DNA of 10,186 bases from Planctomycetota bacterium (GTDB lineage Bacteria > Planctomycetota > Phycisphaerae > UBA1845). The notes below the pieces were generated by a model that did not search any database, was not told the DNA's origin, and worked only from the letters and a program-made list of their open reading frames with translations. The translations under genes and the position numbers were made by a program. Where the stretch lies: the NCBI GenBank assembly GCA_022561415.1, contig JADFRH010000059.1, forward strand, positions 1 through 10,186, written 5' to 3'. Below, piece by piece: positions 2,875-10,186 of the stretch; position 1 is the first letter of the stretch; each line of letters begins with the position of its first letter.

Positions 2875-4761
2875 ATGTGCGGAATCGCCGGGATTTGGGG
2901 TGACGCCGGCGTCGAGCGCCTTGCCGCGATGGCCGATGCCCTGCGCCACCGCGGACCCGACGACGAAGGCACGTGGCGCAGCGACGACGAGCGTCTCGGT
3001 CTGACCTATCGCCGGTTGGCCGTCATCGATTTGGAAGGCGGGCGGCAGCCGATCGCCAATGAAGACGGCCGGGTCGTGGCCGTGTGCAACGGTGAGATCT
3101 ACAACTATCGCGAATTGCGCCAAGAACTCTTCTCACGCGGCCACCGCCTCACGACCCACGGCGACACCGAGGTCATCGTCCATCTCTACGAGGACTACGG
3201 CGATGCGTTCGTCGACAAGCTCCGGGGCATGTTCGCCATCGCCGTCTGGGACGACCGCGAGCGACGTCTGGTCCTGGTCCGTGACCGCGTCGGCAAAAAG
3301 CCGCTCTATTTCAGTGAGTCAAACGGCGAGTTTCTGTTCGCGTCGGAGATCAAGGGTCTGCTCGCCGCGCTGCCGACCGCCCCGGCCCTGGACGAACAGG
3401 CCATCGCGGACTACCTGCGGTGGACCGTCATTCCCGCACCCGGCACGATCTATCAGGGTATTCGCAGCCTGCGACCGGGCGAACGCATGGTCGTACAGGA
3501 CCGTAGCGTCGTTCACGTCGAGCGCTATTGGCAGCAGCGGATGCTGCCCAAGACGCACATGTCGCGTCGCCAGGCCGTGGAACGCGTCGACGATCTGCTC
3601 CGCGAGTCGATTCGGTTGAGGATGCGATCGGACGTTCCGGTCGGCTGTTTTCTGTCCGGCGGAATCGACAGCGGAATCATCACGGCCATCGCTTCGGGCA
3701 TGGCACCTGCGAAGCTGATGACCATGACGATCGGCTTCGAGGACGACGCGTTCGATGAACGCCCGCTCGCCCGGCTAGTCGCCAGGCAATACGGCACGGA
3801 CCACCACGAACTGGTCGTGCGCCCGGACCTGGAGACCGATCTGCCCAAGATCCTCGCCGCGTACGATCAGCCGTTTGGAGACTCATCGGCCATTCCATCG
3901 TTCTACGTCGCCCGGGCCGCCCGTGAGTTGGTCAAGGTGGTACTGACCGGTGACGGTGGCGACGAACTCTTCGCGGGGTACCGGCGATACGTGGCTGCGA
4001 GAATCGGTGGGCACCTTCCCGCTGGACCCTGGAGCGCACTCGCCGGTGCGATGCCCAGCCCACGCGGGTATCGCTCGCCCTACGCGTTCGCGCACCGTCT
4101 CGTTCGGGGAATGTCTTTGCCCCCGATCGAACGCTATCTTTCCTGGTCGGTCGATGCGTTCGGAGCCGACGACGTCAGTGCCATGTGGCGAGCGGATTCG
4201 CAAGACGCCAGGGCGTCATTGGGTGAGCGCTGTGATCGATTCGCGCGGGTGTCACTCGACGATCTACGAGACTGCGGGCCGGTCGACCGAATGCTCGGCA
4301 TGGACTTCGCCACCCTACTCCCGAACGACCTGCTGGTGAAGATGGACATCGCCACCATGGCCCACGGGTTGGAGGCGCGGTCGCCCTTTTTGGATCACGA
4401 ACTGGTCGAGGCCGTCAGTCTTCTGCCCGACGACGTCAAGCTCGGGGGCCTGACCACCAAGCCATTGCTCCGCGACCTCAGTGCCCGGTACGTTCCCAAA
4501 CCCATTCGCACGGCGCCCAAGCGCGGCTTCGAGGTGCCCCTCGTCCGGTGGCTGCGACACGACCTGGCGCCACTGTGCGAGGACGTTGTCCTGTCGCGAA
4601 GTGGGCTTCTGGCTAACCTCTTCGATCGTCGGGCGCTCGAGCGCATCATTCGCGAGCGAGACGGGCTCGATCCCGCGCGATGGGCTCGGCGAACGTGGCT
4701 GCTCCTGACGCTCGGCCTGTGGGACGCCGGTGCTTCGGCGGATCGGACACGCGGTCGATGA
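2875..4761 (+). CDS. asnB: glutamine-hydrolysing asparagine synthase-type amidotransferase
   Basis: The 628-residue protein has the two-domain layout of AsnB. The N-terminal class II glutamine amidotransferase domain begins MCGIAGIWG, and Cys2 becomes the N-terminal nucleophile after Met removal, which fixes the start at 2875. RHRGPDDEG (24-32), RRLAVID (46-52), CNGEIYN (71-77) and GDTE (96-99) line the glutaminase site. The C-terminal ATP-pyrophosphatase domain has the PP-loop SGGIDS at 261-266 and TGDGGDELFAGY at about 358-369. Length and motifs look complete, so it should be active, making an amide from glutamine ammonia and an AMP-activated carboxylate. In exopolysaccharide clusters such proteins often act on sugar uronates or unknown acids rather than aspartate. 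The deacetylase downstream favours that reading, but free asparagine synthesis cannot be excluded. No Shine-Dalgarno site is evident. It overlaps the next gene by ATGA. Confidence 0.93.
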   Translation: MCGIAGIWGDAGVERLAAMADALRHRGPDDEGTWRSDDERLGLTYRRLAVIDLEGGRQPIANEDGRVVAVCNGEIYNYRELRQELFSRGHRLTTHGDTEVIVHLYEDYGDAFVDKLRGMFAIAVWDDRERRLVLVRDRVGKKPLYFSESNGEFLFASEIKGLLAALPTAPALDEQAIADYLRWTVIPAPGTIYQGIRSLRPGERMVVQDRSVVHVERYWQQRMLPKTHMSRRQAVERVDDLLRESIRLRMRSDVPVGCFLSGGIDSGIITAIASGMAPAKLMTMTIGFEDDAFDERPLARLVARQYGTDHHELVVRPDLETDLPKILAAYDQPFGDSSAIPSFYVARAARELVKVVLTGDGGDELFAGYRRYVAARIGGHLPAGPWSALAGAMPSPRGYRSPYAFAHRLVRGMSLPPIERYLSWSVDAFGADDVSAMWRADSQDARASLGERCDRFARVSLDDLRDCGPVDRMLGMDFATLLPNDLLVKMDIATMAHGLEARSPFLDHELVEAVSLLPDDVKLGGLTTKPLLRDLSARYVPKPIRTAPKRGFEVPLVRWLRHDLAPLCEDVVLSRSGLLANLFDRRALERIIRERDGLDPARWARRTWLLLTLGLWDAGASADRTRGR

Positions 4762-5381: not shown

Positions 5382-6284
5382 GTGTCCCTAGCTTTGATGC
5401 CAGAACCCGGCGTTTCAACGCCCGCGTCGCGCGGTACGACTCTCGTGGAGCCCGGCGGGACATCCGTCGTCAATGCGATGACGATTGATCTCGAGGATTG
5501 GGCGCAGGCGGTGCTCGGGACACACCTACCGATTACCGATCGGGTACTCAGAAACACCGAGCGCGTTCTGTCGTTGCTCGACGAGCATCGGATTCGCGCA
5601 ACGTTCTTCGCCCTGGGCAAGGTCTGCGAGAAGTTTCCGAGTCTTCTCGAGGCAATCGCCTCGGCCGGCCATGAGATCGGCACACACGGCTACGGGCACG
5701 ACCTGCTTCATCGAATCTCGCCCCGACAATTCCAGGACGACCTGTCGCGAAGCATGGACATCGTCGAGGCGCAAACCGGCCGGCGACCCATCGGTTATCG
5801 CGCACCGGCGTTTTCGATTACGCGCGAATCTCGGTGGGCGGGGCCGATTCTTGCTGAGGCGGGTATCCGATACAGCTCGAGCATCTTCCCCATCGCCGGG
5901 CGGCGCTATGGCATTGCGGACGCCGAGCGGTTCCCCCATCGGTGGGAGAGCTGCGACCTGATCGAGTTCCCGCTGTCGACGGTTCGGCGATTCGGGCGCA
6001 ACCTCCCGGTCGCAGGGGGCGGTTACCTTCGATTGTTGCCGCGACGCATCCTCGAAGCGGCCGTCCGTGAAACCAATCAGCAGCGACAGCCCTTCGTCAT
6101 TTACTTGCACCCCTATGAGTTGGACGTCAACGAGCTTGCCGAGCTCAAGCGCGACGGTTGGTCGATTGCGTGGCGAACCTTCGTGAATCAATCGCTGTTT
6201 CGCGGTCGGGTCCGCGTGAGGCTGGCCGGGCTCTTCCGCGAGTTCCGCTTCACGACCATGGCCGACGTGCTCGGTTTGGAATAA
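5382..6284 (+). CDS. polysaccharide deacetylase, XrtA/PEP-CTERM-locus type (NodB fold, DUF3473-like C-terminus)
   Basis: The 300-residue protein matches the exosortase-associated deacetylase group by motif. TIDLEDW at 34-40 carries the catalytic and metal aspartates (D36, D39) in the variant first NodB motif. THGYGH at 101-106 gives the metal histidines H102 and H106. GYRAPAFSIT is at about 138-147, YSSSIFPI at about 164-171 and GRNLPVAGGGYLRLLP at about 205-220. IYLHPYELD at about 240-248 provides the last catalytic histidine (H243). In the family these enzymes remove N-acetyl groups from a glycan, probably the exopolysaccharide made with exosortase systems. There is no clear signal peptide: the first 30 residues are polar and poorly conserved. 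It follows the acetyltransferase by 24 bp, so the two are likely co-transcribed. GTG 5382 is chosen from its ribosome binding site; the conserved domain only begins near residue 30, so a later start is possible. Confidence 0.88.
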   Translation: MSLALMPEPGVSTPASRGTTLVEPGGTSVVNAMTIDLEDWAQAVLGTHLPITDRVLRNTERVLSLLDEHRIRATFFALGKVCEKFPSLLEAIASAGHEIGTHGYGHDLLHRISPRQFQDDLSRSMDIVEAQTGRRPIGYRAPAFSITRESRWAGPILAEAGIRYSSSIFPIAGRRYGIADAERFPHRWESCDLIEFPLSTVRRFGRNLPVAGGGYLRLLPRRILEAAVRETNQQRQPFVIYLHPYELDVNELAELKRDGWSIAWRTFVNQSLFRGRVRVRLAGLFREFRFTTMADVLGLE

Positions 6285-6314
6285 GTCGCTCGGCTACCGG
6301 CAACCGACCTATCC

Positions 6315-6420
6315 ATAGCGTTTCTCCGCGCTGCGGCGTAGAATCGCTCTCCTCGCGATGGCAACGATGGGGCGCGAGGGGAGCGAGCAGCTTGAGTCCC
6401 CAGCAAATCACAATGGTCGA
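6315..6420 (+). repeat. left copy of a direct repeat: promoter, leader and first codons
   Basis: This stretch aligns with 7416-7520. Shared parts are ATAGCGTTTCT at the left end, TAGAATCG 24 bases further on, and a block of 40 bases (6381-6420 versus 7481-7520) that differs at only 2 positions. That block includes the ribosome binding region, the TTG start codon and the codons for MSPQQIT. Similarity stops abruptly after GGTCGA at 6420. The region between -10 box and ribosome binding site is less conserved and one base longer than in the right copy. Confidence 0.9.
6316..6344 (+). promoter_or_regulatory. candidate promoter of the methyltransferase gene
   Basis: TAGAAT at 6339-6344 is the -10 box, preceded after 17 bp by TAGCGT at 6316-6321, a weak match to a -35 box. 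The same two boxes with the same spacing occur before the wecA-like gene, which supports both. The weak -35 suggests an activator or a non-housekeeping sigma factor. The leader would be about 40 bases. Confidence 0.45.
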
Positions 6421-7231
6421 AAGCGTGCCGCCCCTGCCCTGGCGTTGGCAGGCGAGATCCCTCCTATGGCTTGACTTCCCGATGGGAAAGTTTCTCGACT
6501 ACGGCTGCGGTAGCGGCTGGCTGATGATCAGCGTGCAGGACCGCTGCGCCGAGTGCCACGGCGTAGACGTGCGAAGCGACAAACTTCGGACCTTGCGCAG
6601 GGAGCACTCTGATTTCACTCTCCGAAAAATCGATTTTGACGGCAAGACCGACTACCCGGACAACTTTTTCGATACCATCGCCATGATTGAAGTAATCGAA
6701 CATGTTGGCGATGAGCGCAAAACACTGCGGGAAATCGCTCGCATTCTGAAACCCCATGGGAAGCTCTTGCTTACCACTCCGCACAAGGGACTGCTCACTT
6801 TCCTTGACGTGGGCAACGTCAAATTCGCTTTTCCCCGCCTGCACCGCTTGGCGCATCGACTCAACCGTGACCCAACCTACTATCAAAAGCGATTCGGCGA
6901 CACCCATGGCGGCCAATTGGTAGGCGACATCACCGTCACCCGGAATCGCCGTCCGTGGCATCGCCACTACAAGCCGCACGAGATTCAGGCCCTTTGCCAG
7001 CACAATCTTGTGCTGCGCCGGCACGAGGTTTACTTCCCGGGCATGAGGGCGCTGATGTTTCTACGGGTGGCGCTGCGGGTCGCCTGTTTACGCCTATTCA
7101 AGCCCTTCCCACGGCCGTTGCCGTGGCTGGAACGGAGGCTATCCCAAGTCACGTCCCCTTGGGGCGATCAACTCGTGATGATGTTCGAAAAACTCCCGGA
7201 AGACGACCGGACGGCTGACTCGGAGGGATAG
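6392..7231 (+). CDS. class I SAM-dependent methyltransferase with a borrowed 5' end
   Basis: From TTG 6392 the protein has 279 residues. Motif I FLDYGCGSGWL is at 34-44 and the acidic residue ending beta 2 is D59 (HGVDV). The motif IV/post-I region FDTIAMIEVIEHV is at 93-105 and LKPHGKLLLTTP is at about 119-130. These are typical of Rossmann-fold methyltransferases of the UbiE/Methyltransf_11 type; the acceptor is unknown, plausibly a sugar of the locus. The TTG is chosen because GGGGAG (6378-6383) lies 8 bases upstream and because the same start is used by the downstream wecA-like gene. Residues 1-10 (MSPQQITMVE) match that protein's N-terminus, and methyltransferase-like sequence begins near residue 17. 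ATG 6413 is an alternative start. The core is clearly less GC-rich than neighbouring genes, suggesting transfer. Confidence 0.85.
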   Translation: MSPQQITMVESVPPLPWRWQARSLLWLDFPMGKFLDYGCGSGWLMISVQDRCAECHGVDVRSDKLRTLRREHSDFTLRKIDFDGKTDYPDNFFDTIAMIEVIEHVGDERKTLREIARILKPHGKLLLTTPHKGLLTFLDVGNVKFAFPRLHRLAHRLNRDPTYYQKRFGDTHGGQLVGDITVTRNRRPWHRHYKPHEIQALCQHNLVLRRHEVYFPGMRALMFLRVALRVACLRLFKPFPRPLPWLERRLSQVTSPWGDQLVMMFEKLPEDDRTADSEG

Positions 7232-7263
7232 GCGCCGTCTGAGAGTCACGCTGAACAAGCGAG

Positions 7264-7419
7264 ACATGGGCGACGCAGGATCCATAGCTGCTCGGGCTTA
7301 ACGCGTCGATACTCATCCTGTTTTTTTGCAGAGCCCATGTGGGTCGGTGGCTGCTCGCCTCGATCATGGTTCTCGGTCTGCCCCTGACAGACATGCTGCT
7401 GACGCTGGTTCGTCAATAG
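7264..7419 (+). pseudogene. decayed C-terminal fragment of a WecA/MraY-family gene
   Basis: Bases 7266-7413 align with 8251-8397 of the intact gene downstream, about three quarters identical in my hand alignment. Translated, the fragment gives MGDAGSI, then a frameshift from one extra base at 7287. It continues LLGLNASILILFF and RWLLASIMVLGLPLTDMLLTLVRQ to a TAG at 7417-7419. The intact protein has MGDAGSMLLGLNAAILILLF and RWLLASIMVFGLPLADMSLTLVRR. Many differences are in third codon positions, so the copy probably evolved as a working paralogue before decay. The N-terminal two thirds are absent and the methyltransferase gene occupies the place where they would be. Similarity fades left of about 7264. 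The TAG stop overlaps the promoter of the next gene. Confidence 0.88.
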
Positions 7420-7520
7420 CGTTTCTACACCCTTCCTCGTAGAATCGAATCCTTCGCAGCGCGAGGTGCATACGCGATCGGAGCGAGCAGCTTGAGTCCC
7501 CAGCAAATTACACTGGTCGA
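7416..7520 (+). repeat. right copy of the direct repeat: promoter, leader and first codons
   Basis: This is the partner of 6315-6420, about 1100 bp away. It belongs naturally to the intact wecA-like gene, so it is the likely origin, or a sister, of the left copy. It begins inside the last codons of the pseudogene. Confidence 0.9.
7417..7445 (+). promoter_or_regulatory. candidate promoter of the wecA-like gene
   Basis: TAGAAT at 7440-7445 and TAGCGT at 7417-7422 are separated by 17 bp, exactly as in the left copy. CGGAG at 7479-7483 then serves as ribosome binding site 8 bases before TTG 7492. The sharing suggests that the methyltransferase and the wecA-like gene respond to the same signal. 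Confidence 0.45.
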
Positions 7521-8679
7521 TATCGGTCGAACCTATTGGCCAATCCTGGCGGCGTCGTTCCTGGTGTCGGTGGTGGCCACGCCGATCTGCCGGCGCATCG
7601 CGTTGCGATGGAATCTGGTCGACCGCCCGGACGAATGGCTCAAACCCCACAAGAAGCCGGTCGCGTATCTCGGCGGGCTGGCGATCTTTCTCGGGTGGGC
7701 GGCCGGCGTGCTGCTCTCGTTCCACCTCTTCGAGGGTGTCGAGAACGTGCATTCCGTCGCGGGAACCGTGCCGACGGTCAACACGATCATGATGGCGGGA
7801 ATCTTCCTCGCCGGCCTCGGCGTGATGGTGCTCGGTCTGCTCGACGACCTCTCCGGGGTGTCCGCGAAGGTGAAGCTATTCGCGACGGTTGCGGCCGGCG
7901 CGCTGCTCATGCTCGTCGGCCTTGGAGATGACAGCATCCTCATGGTGCTTCGCTCCTCCGGACTGCCCGCCGAGGATATCCCGCCCTGGCTTCTCGTGGC
8001 GTACTCCGTTCCGCTGACGATCTTCATTACCGTCGGCGCCTGCAACGCGACGAATCTCATCGACGGCGTCGACGGGCTCTGCTCGGGTGTGCTGGGGATC
8101 ATCGCGGCCGGCTTTCTTGTCCTCTCGATCAATCACCACCTCTGGAGCGGGTGGCATCCCTGGACGGTTCAACAGGTCACGATCTCGCTCGCCATGATGG
8201 GGGCGGCGCTCGGCTTCTTGCCCTTCAATCGCAACCCCGCAAGAATTTTCATGGGCGACGCCGGGTCCATGCTGCTTGGTCTCAACGCAGCGATACTCAT
8301 ATTGCTGTTTCTCGAAGCCAACGTGCTGCGTTGGTTGCTCGCCTCGATTATGGTGTTCGGCCTGCCCCTGGCTGACATGTCGCTGACGCTCGTCCGGCGC
8401 TGGCGAAACGAGAGGCCGCTCATGAAAGGCGATCGCAGCCATTTCTACGATCAGCTTCTCGATCGAGGCTGGCCGGTGCATCGGGTGGTGAAGATCAGCT
8501 ACGCGCTGGCGGCTGTCTATGTTGTGTTCGGATGTCTGGCGATCCAGCTACGAACGCGGTACATCGTCTTTCTCTACGGATTGGTTGTCCTGGCCACCGT
8601 CTGGCTCATTGCCAAGTTCAAGATGGTACGTCTGGAAAAGCCTCGACAACCGGATCGCGCAGCAACGCGTGAAGCGTAG
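7492..8679 (+). CDS. WecA/MraY-family polyprenyl-phosphate sugar-1-phosphate transferase
   Basis: The 395-residue membrane protein would transfer a HexNAc-1-phosphate from a UDP-sugar to undecaprenyl phosphate, the first step in building a lipid-linked glycan. Family motifs appear in order. VDRPDEWLKPHKKPVAYLGG is at about 43-62 and LLDD at 116-119, where the aspartates bind Mg. NATNLIDGVDGL is at 185-196, the hallmark nucleophile and metal region, and FMGDAGS is at 253-259. A cytoplasmic loop with RWRNERPLMKGDRSHFYDQL is at about 303-322. Around ten hydrophobic segments separate them. The last loop has SHFYDQL where WecA proteins usually carry a His-rich motif, so the sugar is uncertain; WecA/TagO-like is more likely than MraY in this locus. 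The start is TTG 7492, supported by its ribosome binding site and by the duplicated leader. The gene converges with the minus-strand gene, only 9 bp away. Confidence 0.9.
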   Translation: MSPQQITLVDIGRTYWPILAASFLVSVVATPICRRIALRWNLVDRPDEWLKPHKKPVAYLGGLAIFLGWAAGVLLSFHLFEGVENVHSVAGTVPTVNTIMMAGIFLAGLGVMVLGLLDDLSGVSAKVKLFATVAAGALLMLVGLGDDSILMVLRSSGLPAEDIPPWLLVAYSVPLTIFITVGACNATNLIDGVDGLCSGVLGIIAAGFLVLSINHHLWSGWHPWTVQQVTISLAMMGAALGFLPFNRNPARIFMGDAGSMLLGLNAAILILLFLEANVLRWLLASIMVFGLPLADMSLTLVRRWRNERPLMKGDRSHFYDQLLDRGWPVHRVVKISYALAAVYVVFGCLAIQLRTRYIVFLYGLVVLATVWLIAKFKMVRLEKPRQPDRAATREA

Positions 8680-8688
8680 TCCGCGGGT

Positions 8689-10186
8689 TCACGACTCCGT
8701 CCGGCTTACCTGAAGAACAAAAAGGTCGCCGGCTCGCTGCCACTGTCCCAACCGCGTCGGCAGCTTGGTTCGGGGTGCGGCGCGGTTTTTCGGGACGATC
8801 ACGACAGGTCTTCCCGCACCGGCGGCGCTCTCGAGCTGCACTTCCGTCACCTTGTGAACGATGTGTACGCCCGGCCGGTCCGCCCGAAGCGCCCGGTAGC
8901 GTACGGCGAACAGGGCCATGGAATCCTCGACGATGATCAGCCCGGTCTCGCCGGCGAGTTCGACGGCGTGGCGACTCATTGTCTCGGCCGATCGCTCGAC
9001 CACGGACCAGGGCGTAAACACGTAGACGTAGTCGTCGCGATAGGGTTTGTGGCGCTCGACCGCGCGCAGCACGTTAAACCGGCGGGCGACGGTGGGCGTT
9101 AGTGCGTAAAGAACGGGCGTCGCGGCGAGCGTGATCGCGGCGAGCGCGAAAAGCCTCGAGGGGCTGCGTGCATTTCGCTCGACGACCGCGTAGCCGATTC
9201 CGCCGAAAACGGCGGCCAACACGTAGGCGAGCATGAAGAACGTGTGCTGGTCCACCACGTTGTAACGTACCGCGAAGAGCACGTGGATCGCGAGACCGGC
9301 CGACAACGCCCGCACAGCGATCACCGGGATTCCGAACCGGCGAGCACGGATCAAGCCATAGGCCGCGAGCGGTAGAAGTGCGTTTGGGAAACTCAGCAGC
9401 ACGAACCCGATCGTGATGAGCAAACCGCGAAGGGAAAGGGCTGTGTTCAGGACTTCGTCGGCGAATGACTGTCCGAAAAGGGCGGAGTGCAGCGTGCCGG
9501 CAAAGTCACCGGAGCGAAGCGTCGCTACCAGGATCAGAGCCGTATAGGGAAGCGAGCCGAGCAGCCACAGCCCGGCCGCCGCGACCGCGATGCGAAGCGA
9601 GACCCGCCGCGTGTAAACCGCGTGCAGCATCACACAAGCCAGGATCGGGGTGGTCAGGCCCGCCAGCAAATGGTTGGCGACGCCCAGCCCGTTCAGCATC
9701 AATGCCGTCAGGAGAGCCCCGCGCCGATGGGTCATGGCGTAAACCGCCAGGCACCAGCATTCCCCTGAAAAAAGAGCGGTGGCCAGGGTGTAGGTTTCCA
9801 CGAGCGTCGCGGCTTGCCAAAACGTGTGGGCGACGGCAAGCGCACCGGCCGCGAGCAGGGCGGCCCGGCGGTTGCCCGACAGTGTCACGATGCAGCCGAA
9901 GGTGTTGGCCACGGTCACCGCCCCCGCGACGGCGCTGATCAGCGTGATGGCGAAGGAGGGCTCGACGAAATCCATCGCCGCCGCGAGCCGCGCAAGCCAG
10001 TGGTGAAGCGGATGGACCAGCGCAAGTCCGTACGCACCGTAGAGGTCGCCCGTCACGGCGCGAAGGATGTGCATGCCCGAGTCCTGCCATTGAGCACCGC
10101 GCCGGGCGGTCAGAGCGTAGAGCACGGCAGCTCCGGCGAACACGGCCAGCCAGCTGCGCCAAGACGGCGCGACCCGGTCGGTTGCA
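8689..10186 (-). CDS. DUF2723/GT39-like multi-spanning membrane protein, 5' end outside the window
   Basis: On the minus strand the frame is open from the right edge to the stop at 8689-8691. A GTG at 10143 could start a 484-residue protein, but the upstream codons (reading RSWLAVFAGAAVLY across it) continue the first hydrophobic segment. The true start is therefore probably beyond the window. Just after that segment comes QWQDSG (10075 to about 10092), the short acidic motif that follows TM1 in DUF2723 and other GT-C type transferases such as the protein O-mannosyltransferase relatives. A HPLHHWLARL motif follows. About nine to ten hydrophobic segments occupy the first 340 residues. A soluble C-terminal part of about 140 residues ends the protein, containing RPVVIVPKNRAAP. 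It likely uses a lipid-linked sugar at the outer membrane face, but donor and acceptor are unknown. Confidence 0.7.
   Translation of the reverse strand, partial: ATDRVAPSWRSWLAVFAGAAVLYALTARRGAQWQDSGMHILRAVTGDLYGAYGLALVHPLHHWLARLAAAMDFVEPSFAITLISAVAGAVTVANTFGCIVTLSGNRRAALLAAGALAVAHTFWQAATLVETYTLATALFSGECWCLAVYAMTHRRGALLTALMLNGLGVANHLLAGLTTPILACVMLHAVYTRRVSLRIAVAAAGLWLLGSLPYTALILVATLRSGDFAGTLHSALFGQSFADEVLNTALSLRGLLITIGFVLLSFPNALLPLAAYGLIRARRFGIPVIAVRALSAGLAIHVLFAVRYNVVDQHTFFMLAYVLAAVFGGIGYAVVERNARSPSRLFALAAITLAATPVLYALTPTVARRFNVLRAVERHKPYRDDYVYVFTPWSVVERSAETMSRHAVELAGETGLIIVEDSMALFAVRYRALRADRPGVHIVHKVTEVQLESAAGAGRPVVIVPKNRAAPRTKLPTRLGQWQRAGDLFVLQVSRTES

Follow-up and report, generated by a model that had tools for sequence, protein, structure and literature searches.

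Sequence evidence for a methyltransferase gene that begins with the start of a wecA-like gene, beside the remnant of a diverged wecA homologue

In a 10,186-nucleotide stretch of DNA from an uncultured planctomycete-like bacterium (the whole of which we call the window), a methyltransferase gene opens with almost the same nucleotides as the wecA-like gene that follows it, and a broken piece of wecA-like coding sequence lies between the two. This arrangement raises the question of how the methyltransferase acquired its start, and of where the broken wecA came from. An earlier note on this DNA had proposed that a second copy of the neighbouring wecA had its centre replaced by the methyltransferase. 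The reading that we prefer, to which we assign a probability of roughly 0.6, is that the methyltransferase gutted a wecA-like gene of another lineage and took its start, and that two diverged wecA genes were joined illegitimately.

The locus

In the window, tatC is followed by a series of exopolysaccharide-type genes, encoding an epimerase, an asparagine-synthase-like amidotransferase, a GNAT acetyltransferase, a polysaccharide deacetylase, the methyltransferase, a wecA-like transferase and a convergent PMT/TMEM260-like glycosyltransferase. The genes at the centre of this analysis are as follows.

5382..6284, + strand: polysaccharide deacetylase / DUF3473, the upstream neighbour; a homologue is upstream of wecA in the relatives' loci L001, L002, L029 and L044
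6392..7231, + strand: class I SAM-dependent methyltransferase ORF of 279 aa (272 aa from the in-frame ATG at 6413), identified from Pfam, homologues and AlphaFold
7492..8679, + strand: intact wecA-like polyprenyl-phosphate sugar-1-phosphate transferase, 395 aa; Pfam Glycos_transf_4, 5.7e-33
8689..10143, - strand: PMT/TMEM260-like glycosyltransferase, the convergent downstream neighbour; the same neighbour is found in L001-L004 and L014

WecA-like enzymes (PF00953) load a sugar phosphate onto polyprenyl phosphate. The intact gene of the window lies well above the gathering score of the Pfam family (PF00953 Glycos_transf_4, 114.6 bits against a cut-off of 27). Its matches to the NCBIfam models ECA_wecA (3.7e-25) and mraY (2.3e-24) are both under cut-off; for ECA_wecA the score is 88.8 bits against 326, so that the gene is not a WecA equivalog proper and its sugar is not fixed by this assignment. 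Separately, the amidotransferase (2875-4761) and the deacetylase match the XrtA/PEP-CTERM models TIGR03108 and TIGR03006 below their cut-offs, which hints at a sister exopolysaccharide system.

The repeated start region

The similarity between the starts of the two genes is made up of the following elements.

6312..6346, + strand: upstream (promoter-like) block, copy A; 28/35 identical to 7413-7447
6378..6383, + strand: Shine-Dalgarno-like GGGGAG, read from the sequence, 8 nt before the TTG
6392..6420, + strand: wecA-derived start codon and leader (TTG, MSPQQITMV and part of codon 10); 27/29 identical to 7492-7520
7413..7447, + strand: upstream (promoter-like) block of the intact wecA, which begins directly at the remnant's end
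7473..7520, + strand: ribosome-binding site, TTG start and leader of the intact wecA; 44/48 identical to 6373-6420

As the earlier note had stated, 6381-6420 and 7481-7520 are identical at 38 of 40 positions. The repeat is longer than this: 6312-6420 pairs with 7413-7520 at a local alignment score of 88, where the best of 200 shuffles reaches 26, and the upstream block at 6312-6346 is an additional repeat that the earlier note had not named. Taken by itself, the upstream part (6312-6372 against 7413-7472) scores 35, compared with a maximum of 23 in 500 shuffles. At the 5′ junction, the match to wecA was also correctly described as ending abruptly; it stops at about position 6420, within codon 10, and methyltransferase sequence follows in frame.

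Within the upstream block, six of the seven differences fall in 6326-6336 and are flanked by the unchanged stretches ATAGCGTTTCT and CGTAGAATCG. Differences that are bunched between two kept stretches look like a promoter with a free spacer, and the methyltransferase is probably expressed from a putative promoter like that of the neighbouring wecA. We found no match to a sigma-70-like promoter in the block. A conserved promoter motif did not emerge from relatives either: the wecA upstream regions of eight relatives align with that of the window no better than shuffles do, TAGAAT occurs in 2 of 74 wecA upstream regions (1.0 expected), and the looser TANAAT occurs in 6 of 74 (2.9 expected), a count that 21 of 300 shuffles reach.

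The methyltransferase

Both its domain and its predicted fold identify the enzyme as a class I SAM-dependent methyltransferase. It matches the Pfam families Methyltransf_23 (2.1e-17) and Methyltransf_11 (3.7e-17), its score of 63.8 bits against a cut-off of 27 places it within the class I SAM domain, and it has 294 homologues at E<=0.001. The AlphaFold model has a mean pLDDT of 84.5, and its best PDB match is YcgJ (1xxl_A, Foldseek E 9.1e-13), with TM-scores of about 0.4-0.7 among the 50 matches listed. The body of the gene is unrelated in sequence to wecA, given that its alignment score with the wecA region (30) is within the range of 200 shuffles (maximum 31). Across 22 aligned methyltransferases, no column is invariant before W19, which lies past the fusion point, and residues 1-9 of the model have a pLDDT below 50. 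The fusion point therefore falls in an N-terminal tail that varies freely among these methyltransferases.

This methyltransferase has a patchy distribution. Within the order, it is found at E<=1e-40 in 16 of 114 genomes, in 17 places; in a class-wide draw of 397 genomes, 10 have it at E<=1e-60. Eight of the 16 genomes also have a wecA at E<=1e-40; in only one of these eight (G032) do the two share a contig, at a distance of 13 kb. Compared with genome G005, the window has 66% identity in the methyltransferase and 59% in wecA. Genomes G001-G004 are nearer by wecA (65-69%), yet hold only distant methyltransferases (best E 1.6e-8). The GC content of the gene is 58.5%, a mild difference from the 60.1-65.6% of the other seven genes measured. 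This distribution fits arrival by transfer, although it may instead reflect loss elsewhere, in genomes whose completeness is unstated.

Searches for a mobile carrier gave nothing close. In viral contigs, 29 loci match the methyltransferase, covering a portion of the SAM domain at only 23-34% identity, and none of 60 matching plasmid records covers 80% of the query. There is also no conserved neighbourhood in 10 loci with this methyltransferase, where we located ORF starts by eye and compared the loci with the eight genes of the window. L127 alone has a homologue of this window's glycosyltransferase adjoining the methyltransferase; L129 has a wecA 13 kb off, and L124 an epimerase at 31%. In L127 (4765-7015), the methyltransferase homologue (52%) is directly behind the glycosyltransferase homologue (49%). 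Together with the position of the window's gene in a glycan-type locus, L127 suggests that the substrate is a glycan or a lipid-linked glycan made by the locus. L126 and L127 have a similar further ORF in common.

Ownership of the leader and the start of translation

If the start of the methyltransferase gene was taken from wecA, its leader should be found among wecA proteins and be foreign to methyltransferases. Among the 120 wecA homologues listed of 1962 matched, five (P0121, P0122, P0123, P0124 and P0126) match MSPQQIT at 5 to 7 of its seven residues within their first 60; P0121 is the window's own intact wecA protein. P0203 matches four of the seven, and the other 114 match at most three. 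By contrast, the 120 listed homologues of the methyltransferase, out of 294 matched, each have at most three of these residues in their first 60. The earlier note had named as an opposing outcome that all homologues of the methyltransferase carry the same N-terminus and leader, and no such pattern exists among the 120 listed. As judged from these comparisons, the MSPQQIT leader derives from wecA. The 5′ region of the methyltransferase gene shares descent with the start of another gene, and in sequence the gene is a 5′ chimera.

A second record bears on this point. P0001, a separate protein record, is 99% identical to the methyltransferase, with four differences in 272 residues. It was called from the inner ATG and begins with MVES, so that it retains the end of the wecA-derived stretch; the window DNA that corresponds to MVES is partly wecA-derived. 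On sequence grounds, P0001 represents this chimera with its start placed at the inner ATG, and it may come from a related sample.

It is important to consider that no fusion protein might be made. Translation could begin at the in-frame ATG at 6413, leaving the wecA-derived stretch mainly as a 5′ untranslated region, which would be compatible with the history that we propose. Codon 8 is ATG where the wecA copy has CTG, and the gene caller began P0001 there. However, GGGGAG precedes the ATG by 29 nt and the TTG by only 8, and the frame from the TTG is open and in frame. We consider a start at the ATG possible but doubtful; in our preferred reading, translation of the methyltransferase probably begins at the TTG at 6392 and gives a short tail that is disordered in the model.

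The wecA remnant and its lineage

Two features lie between the methyltransferase stop codon and position 7413.

7232..7264, no strand: 33-nt spacer from the methyltransferase stop to the wecA remnant
7265..7412, + strand: frameshifted wecA remnant, approximately codons 254-302, of P0125-type lineage; 115/147 nt identical to 8250-8396

The remnant aligns to the intact wecA at 8250-8396 with a local alignment score of 129, compared with a maximum of 29 in 200 shuffles. An absence of relationship between these regions, which the earlier note had listed as a possible objection, is thus not what we observe. The alignment is in two pieces split by a single-base indel, which means that the remnant is frameshifted. 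The earlier note was right that a frameshifted C-terminal piece of wecA lies here, but its span of 7264-7419 ran slightly too far, since the second upstream block starts at about 7413.

Read in its two pieces, the remnant comprises 47 residues. Its longer piece matches the wecA homologue P0125 at 37 of 41 amino acids, P0126 at 34 of 41 and the neighbouring intact gene at 32 of 41. At the seven sites that discriminate P0125 from the neighbour, the remnant has the P0125 residue at five and that of the neighbour at none. In a maximum-likelihood tree of 29 wecA homologues and the remnant, the remnant groups with P0125 (UFBoot 99; FastTree support 0.925). Forcing it to be the neighbour's sister is rejected by the AU (p=0.0007), KH (0.012) and SH (0.013) tests. 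When it is forced into the neighbour's clade, AU rejects the placement (p=0.005), KH does so only narrowly (0.0496) and SH does not (0.054), all on these 47 residues. With the reservation of the last value, the remnant appears to belong to a lineage other than that of its intact neighbour, namely one of P0125 type, and the claim that the broken gene was a second copy of the neighbouring wecA is not supported.

The differences between the remnant and the neighbour number 11, 4 and 17 at codon positions 1, 2 and 3. This skew indicates that much of the divergence arose while the sequence coded. Part of the skew comes from the intact gene's side, as it is like that of the intact gene against its relatives.

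The leader gives a somewhat different indication. Leader residue I6 is common to the methyltransferase leader and the neighbour's clade, in contrast to the V of P0126 and P0127; the listed P0125 protein starts later than the leader position. The start block is more alike (44/48) than the remnant (115/147), at a borderline Fisher p=0.052, whereas the upstream block and the remnant do not differ in conservation (Fisher p=1.0). Given the more similar start block and the shared I6, the leader may have come from, or have been converted by, the neighbouring wecA. The leader and the remnant may therefore have different sources.

Junctions and comparison with relatives

The order that had been described, i.e., wecA 5′ end, methyltransferase, wecA 3′ remnant and intact wecA, holds. 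The methyltransferase and the 33-nt spacer occupy the place of 729 nt of the broken wecA, and the spacer does not resemble the lost wecA centre (score 13, where shuffles reach 27). At 7412/7413, the remnant breaks off at wecA codon 302 and is followed without a gap by the intact gene's upstream block. TC is common to all three ends at this border, which can be chance. In sequence, this geometry is what an unequal, non-homologous exchange involving two wecA loci would produce.

None of the relatives searched shows the arrangement. L001 and L002 keep the order of deacetylase, wecA and glycosyltransferase and have no methyltransferase in the interval. In L029 and L044, too, the deacetylase lies upstream of wecA, and nothing between the two matches the methyltransferase. 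We looked for a tandem wecA pair, a comparison that the earlier note had proposed, and found none in the 84 genomes that match wecA at E<=1e-40, out of 114 searched; this threshold would miss short wecA remnants, and many of the 114 genomes are fragmentary assemblies. Only one of the 84 has two wecA copies, which are on different contigs. Scanning genome contigs with the single wecA sequence gave no relative; an alignment-based scan gave 80 loci of 133 relatives, the best at 68% identity, and a scan of viral contigs gave no match. The nearest relatives, P0122-P0126 and P0001, were compared as proteins.

Two observations on these loci may be added. The deacetylase-wecA spacer of L002 (4364-5158, approximately 794 nt) contains short inverted-repeat-like stretches and no methyltransferase. 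A distant, other methyltransferase (31-33% identity) is directly convergent to wecA in L019 (9734-10237) and in a further genome (G041, contig C226, 25219-25734).

Proposed history and alternatives

We propose that, in a locus of exopolysaccharide type, the central part of a wecA-like gene gave way to a methyltransferase that came from elsewhere. The incoming gene would have been joined in frame to the wecA upstream region, ribosome-binding site, TTG and first 9 to 10 codons, and the 3′ part of the broken wecA would have been left as a dead remnant. The broken gene would be a diverged, P0125-type relative rather than one newly copied from the intact wecA beside it. An illegitimate junction at 7412/7413 would then have set the two wecA genes side by side, with the upstream region of one following directly on codon 302 of the other. 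The simplest route to this junction would be DNA of a related lineage recombining at the locus. If the partners were diverged relatives, one exchange would account for their adjacency as well as for their different lineages. Both the order of events and the transfer are what we infer from the arrangement.

An alternative is that the start region, the methyltransferase and the 3′ remnant of wecA came in as one block, or were put together as one, in a P0125-type lineage and were kept for expression matching that of the intact wecA. We regard this as unlikely. If it is true, two glycan-pathway genes would be matched by a duplicated, separately maintained start module instead of an operon.

The history put forward in the earlier note, in which this wecA was duplicated locally in tandem and the centre of the upstream copy was then replaced by the methyltransferase, would readily produce the 7412/7413 border, as a truncated gene joined to the next copy's upstream region with TC at three ends, and it agrees with a methyltransferase leader that is closest to the neighbour's own. 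However, it is a weaker reading, because the remnant places with P0125 (and is rejected as sister to the neighbour and, except by SH, from its clade) and because no tandem wecA pair was found among the relatives with a strong match. The codon-position differences also speak against it, though part of their skew is from the intact gene. We consider local duplication improbable.

A metagenomic assembly chimera, in which reads from two strains that differ in their wecA allele were merged, would account for a remnant and an intact gene from different lineages, and the methyltransferase-remnant and remnant-promoter joins are seen in this single assembly, but P0001, with its four amino-acid differences, has the same chimeric start from the inner ATG onward and the remnant is diverged and frameshifted, unlike a strain allele of the intact gene, so we judge this very improbable.

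Relation to known kinds of event

In xenologous gene displacement in situ, and in mosaic operons, diverged homologues of different lineages are found at one syntenic place. The window is alike in this respect, but the displacement here would be incomplete, in that a remnant of one homologue survives beside the other. Compared with planctomycete class I SAM methyltransferases (Methyltransf_11/23), the enzyme has the same domain and the conserved C-terminal GDQLV region; only the N-terminal tail differs.

Promoter capture by silent or horizontally acquired genes, via deletion or tandem duplication, has been described (PMC11111574, which cites Anderson and Roth 1978 and Li and Bock 2019). The likeness is that a foreign or promoterless coding region comes to lie behind another gene's upstream region through illegitimate junctions. 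The differences are that the event here is natural and known from sequence, and that the start and first codons were apparently also taken, within a wecA remnant of another lineage. Deletion-born fusion genes have been described across bacteria (PMC12803068); as in these, fragments of two genes form a new open frame, but here approximately nine codons come from the first gene, the second is essentially complete, and the join would be via insertion or replacement. The present case is a natural instance of this known promoter-capture or fusion kind of event.

The locus is a readable natural case of how an acquired gene may gain expression signals, in which one can still see the breakpoints, the captured start and what is left of the dead host gene. 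It also illustrates that a remnant adjoining an intact homologue need not be its duplicate; placing 47 residues phylogenetically changed the history. It is a small fossil of gene replacement, and has no bearing on a new biochemical system.

Other features of the window

Two repeat-like features occur elsewhere in the window. Between the epimerase and amidotransferase genes, the spacer at 2810-2840 is dispersed-repeat-like (CAGTGATCAGTTTTCAGTCATCAGTC). Between tatC and the epimerase gene is a 22-nt inverted repeat (1741-1804), 95% complementary with a 20-nt loop, that is made up of GTAATTCGTAACTCGT-like units.
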